Part shown: positions 26,277 through 30,503 of the stretch, one piece after another | Layout: each line of letters starts with the position of its first letter | How positions within the stretch are numbered: the stretch's first letter is position 1 | NCBI GenBank assembly: GCA_937139605.1 | Contig: CAKZQG010000045.1 | Coordinates: 5,455 to 69,454, forward strand | Source: an uncultured bacterium | Lineage (GTDB): Bacteria; DRYD01 | Direction of reading: 5' to 3' | Length of the DNA: 64,000 nt | Made by a program: the position numbers and the translations under genes | The notes under the pieces: model-generated | Database searches by the model: none | Told to the model about the DNA's origin: nothing | The model's input: the letters and a program-made list of their open reading frames with translations, nothing else

Positions 26277-29200
26277 TTATATTAAACTACCTTCTTCCTC
26301 AACTTCAAAATCTTCAAAACTCTTAGGAACAATAGGCTGATTTTTATTAGTAATAATCTCTATATCCAATCCTAAAGCTTGTAATTCTTTTACTAAAACT
26401 TTAAAACTTTCAGGGATTCCTTTAAATACAACAGGCTTGCCTTTAACAATAGATTCATAAGCTTTATTTCTACCTAATACATCATCAGATTTAATAGTAA
26501 GCATTTCTTGTAGAGAATAAGAAGCACCATAAGCTTCTAAAGCCCAAACTTCCATTTCTCCAAATCTTTGCCCACCATACTGAGCTCTACCACCCAACGG
26601 CTGCTGAGTTATCAAAGAATAAGGCCCCGTAGATCTAGCATGAATCTTATCCTCTACCATATGTATTAATTTCATCATATAAACATATCCCACAGTTACA
26701 GGCCTATCAAACGGTTCTCCAGTTTTACCATCATATAATACAAACTTCCCATTTATTAAATTCTCTATTATTTTATCATATAAAAATTCAATTTCATCTT
26801 TTGTAAAATCTCTAACTGTGAATAATTTAACTAATTGCCTATATTCCATTTTCTCTAATTTTTCTTTATTTATATCCTTTGATAATCTATTTATTATTTC
26901 TTCTTTAGATATTTTATTTTCATTAAAAAGAATATCTAAAAGGTGCTTAACAGTATAACCACTATCCCTCATTAATAATAATAACAAATCATATTCAGTA
27001 TAATTATATAAACTATTAAGCATATTTTTATACTTATAATTAAGAGCTTCTTTAATAAGATTTTTAATTTCATCTAAAGATAAATTAGAAAAAGGTAAAA
27101 CTTTAATTCTAATACCTAAGATTTTACAAACTAATCCTAAATGAGCTTCAAATATTTGGCCGATATTCATTCTAGAAGGAACTCCTAAGGGATTAAGAAT
27201 AACTTGAACAGGGGTACCATCAGCCATAAAAGGCATATCTTCAATAGGAACAATAATAGAAATAACCCCTTTATTACCATGTCTTAGAGCAACTTTATCA
27301 CCTACTTTTATATTCCTATTTTGAGCAATATGAATTAATACTCGTTCTAGATAATTATTAGCACTATTAATTTTATTAGTATCTCCTTTAAAATCAAATA
27401 CTTTAATAACAGTACCATAAACCCCTGGTGGTGCTTTTAAAGAAGTATCCCTCGCATTCCTTGCACTCTTACCAAAAATAGCTTGTAATAATTTTTCTTC
27501 AGCAGTTAACTCAACTTCACTTTGAGGAGTTATTTTACCTACCAAAATATCCCCAGGTTTAACATAAGCACCAACAGAAATTATCCCATGCTCATCTAAA
27601 TACTTAATAGCTTCATCAGAAACTGTTCCAATTTCCCTCGTAATTTCCTCAGGGCCCTGCTTAGTATGAACAGCTACAACTTCTTCCTCATCTACATGAA
27701 TACTTCTAAAATAATCCTTTCTAATAATTTCTTCACTAATAATAACTGCATCTTCAAAATTATAACCTTCCCAAGGCATATAAGCAACTAAAACATTCCT
27801 ACCTAAAGCTAATTCATCACCGTCTATAGAAAAACCCGAAGCAATAACATCCCCAGCTTTAACTTCATCGTTTAAATTAACCAACGGTCTCTGGTTAATA
27901 ATAGTAGCACTATTAGTATTAACAAATTTTAATAAATCATAACTATTATATATACCTTTAACTTTATTAACTTCAATAACAATTCTTTTAGAATCTACAT
28001 AAACGACTTTACCAGAATTTTTAGCAATAACACAATATCCACTTTGTTTAGCCACTTCTTTTTCTAATCCTGTAAAAATAAAAGGTTTTTCAGGATTTAG
28101 TAAAGGTACAGATTGCCTTTGCATATTAGTACCCATTAATGCTCTATTTATATCGTCGTTTTCTATAAAAGGAATTAAAGAAGCAGAAACAGAAAATATT
28201 TGGATAGGACTAATCTCAACAAAATCTATTTCATTTGCCTCAACAGTTATAAATGTTCCTTTATACCTAACATCAACTTTAGTTTCTAATATTTCACCAG
28301 TTTTGATATCAAATTTAATATCAGCAGGAGCTATTTTATAGTTCTCTTCTTGAGAAGCATCTAAATAATAAATTTTACTAAAATCAATTTTCCCATTATT
28401 AATCTTATAATAAGGAGCAACTAAAAACCCAAAAGGAGAATTTATAGTAGCATAAGTAGTTAAAGAAGTAATGAGTCCAATGTTTTGTCCTTCAGGAGTT
28501 TCCACAGGACAAATCCTACTATAATGACTACTATGAATATCCCTTATATCAAACCCTGCTTGCTCTCTTTGGATACCACCTATCCCCAAAGTAGATAATC
28601 TTCTTTTATGAGTTAACTCAGATAACGGATTAGTTTGATCTAAAAATTGAGATAAAGAATTTTGAGCAAAAAATATTTTAAGCATACCACTAACAGGTCT
28701 TGGATTTATTACATCAGAAATCCTTATTGTCTCTTCATTAGCCTGAGTTAAGTTATCCTTAGTTAATCTAACAAACTTAACCATTCCAGCTTTAAGAGTA
28801 TTATATAAATGCTCTCCAACAGGCCTTACCCTTCTATTAGATAAACTATTTATATCATCCTCTAATCTCTTACCTTCTACAAATTCAAAATGAGATCTTA
28901 TAACACTAATTATTTCATTATAGATAAATCCTTTCAAGTTAATTTTATATTCACAATAAGGACATATCATATAACCGCCATCATATTTTGTTTCATTTAA
29001 TTTAAAATATTTTTCACATAAAATACACTTAATAACGACTTTATCTTTTAAATCATTTCCACAAGAAACACAAGAAAAATTAATATTGTTATTAGTAATA
29101 GAAATATTTTTATACAAATTAATAGTTTGACAATTATTACACTTAACAGAATTATTTAAAACTGGACTATAATGTAATCTAATTCCACAAGAATTACATT

Positions 29201-30503
29201 CTATACTACCGTTTTTACTTATAGTTCCACAATTATGACAAGAAATATCATATCCCATTTTTTGATTTACTTTATATCTACCTGCAACAGATAACTCATA
29301 TTTATCTTTACTAAAATAAGGGAAAACTTGTTCCTGAACAACATCTAAAGGTATATTAGTAACTGTTTCCCCACTTATTCTTCTATGAAGTAATCTAATA
29401 GCTTTTTCTTGCTCATCAGCTCCAAAAATTTTGTTTCTTCTTATATCCCTTTCTATAGTATTAATAATTAATTGAACAATATGAGAGAAGAATTTATATT
29501 TATCATAGAAATATTCACTAACATTTTCAACATTAGCAAATTCTGTTTTTCCCTTTTCAGAAATCTTTTTATAAATATAAGGAATTAAATATTCATTAAT
29601 AAATTTTTCTATTTCATTATTTTCTAATAATATTTCTTCAGCTTTTTCTATAAATTCTTTTTCAAATTTTACCTTAAAATCCTTAGCTAAGTAATTAAAA
29701 ATAAGTTCTTCTAAGATATCATAGTTAGAGAACCCCAATGCTTTTAATAAAGCGACTATAGTAAATTTTATTTTTTTATCCATTCTAACGCGTATAAAAT
29801 TAGTGGATTTTATTTTTTCTAATTCTCTTTCATGGTAATAAACTTCAGAAAGATCCGTTTCTATATCTAAAATATTTCCCTTAGCAGGAATAATAGTAGT
29901 TTTATAATTAGTTAATTTTTCTACTTTTTCTTTAAAATGATAAATTCCTGGGGATCTTATTAATTGATTTACAAAAACTCTTTCAGTACCATTAACAATA
30001 AAAGTACCTCTGTCAGTCATCATTGGTAATTCAAAAAATAATACTTCATCCTCTAAGGTTTTAACAGGTTCTATTTCCTTTCTTAATGGTCCCGAACAAT
30101 CGATACATTCTAAACTCTTATTATCTCTTAATTCATAATAAACTTTTCCACATTTAGAACAAATAAACTTAGATTTTCCAACTGTTAATGTTAAACTAAT
30201 ATAAACAGGTACATAATAAGTTAATTGTTCATATTTACATTTTTGTAGATCTTTTTCACTAACTTCCCCAATTCTATAACCCTTATAGTTTATAATATAT
30301 TTATCAGTTTCAATAGGAAAAAACTCTCTAAATATAGAATCCAAACCTTCATTTAAAAACCATTTAAAAGAATCCTTAGATACATTTAGAAATTCTGGTA
30401 AATCAGGAATAACATAATCTTTCCATCTACCTAATGCTAATACTTTTCCATTTTCTTTTACTTGCTGAATCTCTTTAGATATCTCTTGGTTAAGTAAATT
30501 CAT
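26277..30503 (-). CDS. rpoB: DNA-directed RNA polymerase subunit beta with zinc-ribbon insertions
   Basis: This is the beta subunit, 1408 residues. Core motifs are clear: MMTDRGTFIVNGTERV, SNRRVRPVGEH, a rifampicin-pocket region SQFLDQTNPLSELTHKRRLSTLG, GRNVLVAYMPWEGYNFEDA, and the C-terminal QPLGGRAQYGGQRFGEMEVWALEAYGA. Two Cys-rich insertions are unusual. The first has CSKC (115-118) and CIDC (133-136). The second, between GRYKVNQKMG and IISVIRSHFEF, has six CxxC pairs at 422/425, 436/439, 455/458, 478/481, 493/496 and 514/517. Together these make four probable zinc ribbons, absent from E. coli beta. The ATG is preceded by AAGGGGG. Confidence 0.98.
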   Translation of the reverse strand: MNLLNQEISKEIQQVKENGKVLALGRWKDYVIPDLPEFLNVSKDSFKWFLNEGLDSIFREFFPIETDKYIINYKGYRIGEVSEKDLQKCKYEQLTYYVPVYISLTLTVGKSKFICSKCGKVYYELRDNKSLECIDCSGPLRKEIEPVKTLEDEVLFFELPMMTDRGTFIVNGTERVFVNQLIRSPGIYHFKEKVEKLTNYKTTIIPAKGNILDIETDLSEVYYHERELEKIKSTNFIRVRMDKKIKFTIVALLKALGFSNYDILEELIFNYLAKDFKVKFEKEFIEKAEEILLENNEIEKFINEYLIPYIYKKISEKGKTEFANVENVSEYFYDKYKFFSHIVQLIINTIERDIRRNKIFGADEQEKAIRLLHRRISGETVTNIPLDVVQEQVFPYFSKDKYELSVAGRYKVNQKMGYDISCHNCGTISKNGSIECNSCGIRLHYSPVLNNSVKCNNCQTINLYKNISITNNNINFSCVSCGNDLKDKVVIKCILCEKYFKLNETKYDGGYMICPYCEYKINLKGFIYNEIISVIRSHFEFVEGKRLEDDINSLSNRRVRPVGEHLYNTLKAGMVKFVRLTKDNLTQANEETIRISDVINPRPVSGMLKIFFAQNSLSQFLDQTNPLSELTHKRRLSTLGIGGIQREQAGFDIRDIHSSHYSRICPVETPEGQNIGLITSLTTYATINSPFGFLVAPYYKINNGKIDFSKIYYLDASQEENYKIAPADIKFDIKTGEILETKVDVRYKGTFITVEANEIDFVEISPIQIFSVSASLIPFIENDDINRALMGTNMQRQSVPLLNPEKPFIFTGLEKEVAKQSGYCVIAKNSGKVVYVDSKRIVIEVNKVKGIYNSYDLLKFVNTNSATIINQRPLVNLNDEVKAGDVIASGFSIDGDELALGRNVLVAYMPWEGYNFEDAVIISEEIIRKDYFRSIHVDEEEVVAVHTKQGPEEITREIGTVSDEAIKYLDEHGIISVGAYVKPGDILVGKITPQSEVELTAEEKLLQAIFGKSARNARDTSLKAPPGVYGTVIKVFDFKGDTNKINSANNYLERVLIHIAQNRNIKVGDKVALRHGNKGVISIIVPIEDMPFMADGTPVQVILNPLGVPSRMNIGQIFEAHLGLVCKILGIRIKVLPFSNLSLDEIKNLIKEALNYKYKNMLNSLYNYTEYDLLLLLMRDSGYTVKHLLDILFNENKISKEEIINRLSKDINKEKLEKMEYRQLVKLFTVRDFTKDEIEFLYDKIIENLINGKFVLYDGKTGEPFDRPVTVGYVYMMKLIHMVEDKIHARSTGPYSLITQQPLGGRAQYGGQRFGEMEVWALEAYGASYSLQEMLTIKSDDVLGRNKAYESIVKGKPVVFKGIPESFKVLVKELQALGLDIEIITNKNQPIVPKSFEDFEVEEEGSLI

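Follow-up and report, generated by a model that had tools for sequence, protein, structure and literature searches.

The beta subunit of RNA polymerase (RNAP) is among the most conserved of proteins, and lineage-specific insertions, many without known function, are a main source of its structural novelty. In Archaea and eukaryotes, the zinc ribbons of Rpb9 and TFIIS/TFS are attached to multisubunit RNAP, and Rpb9 contacts the lobe of Rpb2. Lineage-specific insertions of bacterial beta, such as beta-i4, beta-i9 and beta-i11 of E. coli in the nomenclature of Lane et al. (PMC2939025), are found in one lineage, in loops of a conserved core whose fold tolerates them. Here we analyze the rpoB gene carried by a 64,000-nucleotide stretch of contig CAKZQG010000045.1 (hereafter the window) from a hot-spring bacterium of the phylum Candidatus Calescibacteriota (formerly EM19/Calescamantes). 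The encoded beta subunit contains four zinc-ribbon-like units, three in tandem in a loop of the beta2 lobe and one in the beta1 domain (protrusion). Located between conserved core segments and present in one lineage, these inserts are lineage-specific RNAP insertions. However, the insertions described in PMC2939025 have other folds (two BBM2 motifs in E. coli beta-i4, SBHM repeats in beta'i6 and beta'i2), whereas those of the window are tandem zinc-ribbon-like units. They also differ from Rpb9 and TFIIS/TFS, which are separate subunits or factors, in being built into beta and in lacking the acidic DE pair; the sequences match at the level of a generic ribbon only.

The protein was assigned to the RpoB family by the NCBIfam models PRK00405 (1311.8 bits, cut-off 896) and TIGR02013 (1246.9 bits, cut-off 801), and a predicted model of its residues 28-700 aligned to solved beta chains with Z scores of about 21-22. 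The closest named RpoB records, at 62% identity, are those of Candidatus Calescibacterium sp. SKYB25 (L033) and of 'bacterium' SKW172 (L032). Eight CxxC motifs start at residues 115, 133, 422, 436, 455, 478, 493 and 514, exactly as listed in a first-pass annotation of this DNA, and contain 16 of the 20 Cys of the protein. Chance clustering is ruled out by 2000 composition shuffles, which gave a mean of 0.26 CxxC and a maximum of 3; the clustering is thus confirmed as genuine. An assembly artefact is likewise ruled out by the presence of the same layout in an independent genome of the same genus (G001) and of the lobe insert in four genomes of a sister genus, two of which (G003 and G005) correspond to the named records SKW172 and SKYB25.

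The first-pass annotation had described four zinc-ribbon-like units, with a run of three in a single loop, and had stated that E. coli and Thermus lack these sites. Both statements hold: ribbon-type family matches and the predicted strand-knuckle topology agree with four such units, and the motifs are absent from the RpoB of E. coli (L112) and from a Thermus-like RpoB (L015). The distance between paired motifs does lie within the announced range of 10 to 19 residues, but 'regular' was too generous a word for spacings of 10, 14, 17 and 19. The 115/133 ribbon had been placed in the lobe, whereas its actual site is the beta1 domain.

Insert positions were mapped by alignment to the E. coli K-12 RpoB (Table 1), and core RpoB sequence aligns on both sides of the inserts. 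The lobe insert, of about 104 residues in the window and 104-107 residues across six genomes, occupies the loop preceding IISVIRSHFEF, inside the beta2 lobe. Since the beta1-lobe (Thermus residues 18-138 and 333-392) is the counterpart of the Rpb2 protrusion (PMC4593161), the first ribbon belongs to the protrusion, and the triple insert is part of the beta2 lobe.

Table 1. Coordinates of rpoB, of its inserts and of the ribbon-like units in the window.
Feature	Position	Strand	Remarks
rpoB, RNA polymerase beta subunit	26277..30503	minus	1408 aa, four ribbon-like insert units
beta1 (protrusion) insert with N-terminal ribbon, residues 112-146	30066..30170	minus	between E. coli beta residues 106 and 117
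beta1 ribbon, Cys 115, 118, 133, 136 (CxxC-14-CxxC)	30096-30161 (Cys span)	minus	
Lobe (beta2) insert, residues 419-522, three tandem ribbons	28938..29249	minus	replaces E. coli ~412-417
Lobe ribbon 1, Cys 422, 425, 436, 439 (CxxC-10-CxxC)	29187..29240	minus	Cys invariant, 6/6 family genomes
Lobe ribbon 2, Cys 455, 458, 478, 481 (CxxC-19-CxxC)	29061..29141	minus	Cys invariant, 6/6 family genomes
Lobe ribbon 3, Cys 493, 496, 514, 517 (CxxC-17-CxxC)	28953..29027	minus	four Cys in the window's genus; none or one in genus g2
Residues 149-151 (TLE), aligned with E. coli I117-K118-E119	30051..30059	minus	alignment

The phylum was sampled with seven genomes: two of the window's genus (G000 and G001), four of a sister genus in the same family (genus g2, G002-G005) and one of a sister family (G006). 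In an RpoB tree they form a single clade with a support of 100/100, in which G006 is the outer branch. The G006 protein has a single ribbon at the lobe site (VKCPKCGYEEYPRRLKCPKCG), which the insert profile aligns with ribbon 1, and none in beta1. Genus g2 harbours a full-length lobe insert where ribbons 1 and 2 keep their eight Cys without exception, and no beta1 ribbon; the surroundings of its ribbon 3 are kept (KL..E...DG.YLI.P), with the four Cys substituted or down to one. Finally, the window's genus carries all four units. This series indicates that ribbons were gained stepwise inside the phylum, going from one, to two plus a relic of ribbon 3, to three plus the beta1 ribbon. For the g2 relic, loss of the ribbon-3 Cys seems likelier than a gain of four Cys in an already folded segment. 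Because seven genomes preserve several growth stages of one insertion, they allow putative metal sites of an essential enzyme to be followed as they come and go.

Compared with shuffles in which the Cys were held fixed, the similarity between ribbons 1 and 2 is raised (z 3.3), and so is that of ribbon 1 to the ribbon of G006 (z 3.3). Coming from ten comparisons on 30-residue pieces, these values are only suggestive of an internal duplication of ribbons. A donor elsewhere in the genome was rejected, as the profile had no further match there at E <= 0.01. A phage or viral source was rejected too: tblastn against phages gave no match, and viral contigs yielded 122 pattern matches of which none was confirmed. 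In the G006 RpoB frame (L114/L008), YDISLAGRYK is immediately preceded by a TGA that may be a sequence error, and about 110 extra helical-looking residues follow VRERFMIA.

Conservation of the inserts is concentrated on the Cys. All 16 Cys found in CxxC motifs are kept in the second genome of the genus (L003), even though identity falls to 67% in the lobe insert, as against 86% for the whole RpoB. Across genera, the eight Cys of ribbons 1 and 2 are invariant in the six family genomes at 42-46% identity, and the other residues of the lobe insert are poorly conserved. Between the two genomes of the genus, the ratio of nonsynonymous to synonymous substitution rates is 0.41 for the lobe insert and 0.13 for the whole RpoB; such ratios are rough on 30-residue pieces, and in several of the g2 comparisons the synonymous sites approach saturation. 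As judged from these comparisons, purifying selection holds the Cys while the rest of the insert changes fast.

We searched for similar inserts in other bacteria. A profile of the insert, run on 386 genomes, matched RpoB solely in the seven Calescibacteriota. Unrelated ribbons could escape such a profile, and loops were therefore also read directly, in 181 open reading frames (ORFs; some are repeats) and 36 more, using a general RpoB profile on 290 genomes with repeat searches for low-scoring or unlisted ones (six genomes without a profile match were left unread). No CxxC ribbon was seen at the lobe site outside the phylum in the loops read directly, although one protein (L265) has a single CxxC in the region. 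The first-pass annotation had asked whether the same insertion might be common across well-studied phyla, and for these ribbons the answer is negative. Other phyla do, however, have inserts of another kind at the lobe site and ribbons of another kind at another beta1 loop. The lobe site is in fact an insertion hotspot, with inserts, some of more than 100 residues, in Negativicutes, Christensenella-like Clostridia and several unnamed families; in contrast to the window's, these contain no CxxC ribbon.

The ribbons found at the other beta1 loop are of the CxC(G)...CxxC type (YE[IL]GxWxCxCG...) and are present in at least ten other families (carriers include L018, L020, L021, L022, L028, L121, L127, L146, L180 and L269, with additional Cys pairs in the loop of L146 and L180). 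Like the window's, they are ribbon-like Cys units inserted in beta1, but they differ in lying in a more upstream loop, in the CxC of their first half and in sequence. The window RpoB reads YRIGEVSEKDLQKCKYEQ at the YE[IL]GxW site and has no CxCG...CxxC ribbon there. Because the Calescibacteriota lack it, the CxC...CxxC ribbon of other bacteria is considered independent of the window's. No report of zinc ribbons at these RpoB sites was found in the open-access literature (subscription papers, including the Lane & Darst survey, were outside the scope), where zinc-ribbon inserts at these positions of beta are apparently undescribed.

Family and structure predictions bear on the fold of the units. 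The isolated segment 406-540 matched the zinc-ribbon families DZR, Zn_Ribbon_1 and Zn_ribbon_3, with 30.2 bits for the double zinc ribbon DZR (PF12773; cut-off 27.3); in the window, the segment is an insertion inside an RNAP subunit. AlphaFold2 modelled the isolated lobe insert from a six-row alignment with a mean predicted local distance difference test score (pLDDT) of 61, rising to about 74-86 for ribbons 2 and 3. Modelled in context from 36 rows, residues 28-700 reached a pLDDT of 74 and a predicted template modelling score of 0.75; local pLDDT was about 72-90 for ribbons 2-3, about 59-62 for ribbon 1 and about 69-79 for the beta1 ribbon. Short strands were predicted around each CxxC, and the beta1 ribbon lies at the tip of a long beta hairpin in the predicted model. 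The top structural matches of the 28-700 model include the Thermus beta1 domain in complex with the RID of Mfd/TRCF (3mlq) and with CarD (4xax). A profile search of solved structures gave nothing significant (best E 0.034).

We consider, with a probability of roughly 60%, that the ribbons are surface modules serving structure or docking, with one Zn2+ per four-Cys unit, that they are not catalytic and that they are probably no general binders of nucleic acid. Each unit would coordinate its Zn2+ through its own four Cys, as a sequential zinc ribbon, and would act as a small rigid add-on domain that stabilises the insert. On the outside of the lobe and of the protrusion, the units may offer a surface for protein docking. 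The most specific role we can propose is that the beta1 ribbon remodels the docking of factors on the protrusion. The strand that follows directly after this ribbon aligns with E. coli residues 117-119, which we take to be part of the Mfd contact, the residue numbers not having been found in the docking papers cited below. The Mfd-RID binds the beta protrusion (PMC7864632) and the CarD-RID binds the same beta1-lobe (PMC4593161). A remodelling of factor docking is proposed because the beta1 ribbon adjoins the strand aligned with this Mfd/CarD-docking region. If correct, it would tie the beta1 ribbon of this thermophilic candidate phylum concretely to transcription-coupled repair or to the stability of open complexes, but it should be regarded as a lead and not as a demonstration.

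An Mfd-like ORF with a CarD/TRCF-RID domain is present in all six family genomes. In the phylum, PF02559 is matched only inside these Mfd-like ORFs, so a free-standing CarD was rejected; G006 gave no match. The Mfd-like ORF of the window's genus (L225 and L226, 999-1018 aa) exceeds that of the sister genus (L221-L224, 885-904 aa) by about 100 residues. The residues aligned with 117-119 also read differently from genome to genome, with TIE in L003, VDE in genus g2 and IKE in G006.

Several observations weigh against the interpretation as zinc-binding structural or docking modules. Ribbon 1 and the beta1 ribbon are predicted at moderate confidence (pLDDT about 59-79). PF12773 scores 18.8 bits on the whole RpoB, below its cut-off, and fold searches of the isolated insert remain at noise level (Z 2.5, E 0.19), with RING domains among the matches. 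Positions aligned with I117/K118 vary in many other bacteria too; because these residues are not universal, we draw no conclusion on loss of a docking motif as a cause. Since genus g2 does without a beta1 ribbon and has only two lobe ribbons intact, the phylum can dispense with the later units. Lastly, the partner to be docked is hypothetical.

Other roles for the ribbons appear less probable. Binding of upstream or downstream DNA, or of nascent RNA, could help the transcription complex to hold together in the heat. In favour of this role, nucleic acid is a frequent ligand of zinc ribbons, related populations inhabit 70-90 C and pH 7-9 (PMC4791363), and the beta1-lobe site where the CarD-RID docks is close to the upstream bubble edge (PMC4593161). 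However, the net charge of the lobe insert, -1 to +3 in six genomes, gives no hint of the nucleic-acid binding suggested by the first-pass annotation; being near zero, it disfavours a generic binding. Together with the poor conservation of the residues other than Cys, it makes this role unlikely. A substitution for a lost cleavage or proofreading factor, with ribbons of the Rpb9 or TFIIS/TFS kind built into beta, would fit the zinc-ribbon nature of such factors and the lack of matches to the GreA/GreB domains (PF01272, PF03449) in all seven Calescibacteriota genomes, which are 71-90% complete. Yet in the same search PF03449 was also unmatched in 34 of 109 other bacteria, about a third, and Gre absence is therefore not distinctive; we rejected Gre loss as an explanation. 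None of the four units carries a TFIIS-like acidic DE pair between its CxxC motifs, genus g2 has only two of the lobe ribbons intact, and we regard the substitution as highly improbable. A wider version, in which a multi-ribbon zinc module of the beta lobe evolved stepwise, with surviving stages, to take over a job done elsewhere by a separate factor, such as an absent Gre-type or CarD-type protein, also strikes us as quite improbable.

The metal chemistry and the pairing of the Cys allow further alternatives. Ribbons 2 and 3 could together form one cross-brace domain with two zinc ions, of the RING or treble-clef type, instead of two sequential ribbons, and the weak fold matches do include several RING domains, TRIM23 heading the Foldseek list (E 0.19) and also ranking among the top rows of VIA. 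These matches are at noise level, as is that of E. coli YfgJ, modelled with two Zn bound, which is also among the top rows (Z 2.5), so that they exclude no family. Moreover, genus g2 dropped the metal Cys of ribbon 3 and kept the four of ribbon 2, whereas a cross-brace would lose both sites. Each pair of CxxC motifs was gained or lost as a block (ribbon 3 in g2, ribbon 1 alone in G006), which argues for pairing within ribbons and leaves the cross-brace quite improbable. CxxC pairs alone do not decide the metal, and the Cys might bind iron or an Fe-S cluster or form disulfides; none of the results favours this, the family matches are to zinc ribbons and a cytoplasmic location disfavours disulfides, so we give this very little credit.

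Outside the ribbons, RpoB contains a further stretch of about 92 residues (residues 1155-1245, positions 26769-27041) near the position of E. coli beta-i9. Most other bacterial RpoBs skip it, but in the phylum and in G021 (L009) the alignment runs through it unbroken. In RpoC (positions 21335-26257, 1640 aa), the N-terminal zinc site is separated from KPEWMVLEVLPVLPAE by a long, charged and probably helix-rich extra stretch (about residues 110-500). The rpoBC genes do not adjoin ribosomal protein or nusG genes in the stretch scanned upstream of 30503 and downstream of 21335. The ORFs upstream of rpoB look like a membrane antiporter-type protein and a short-chain dehydrogenase/reductase (SDR, FabL-like).

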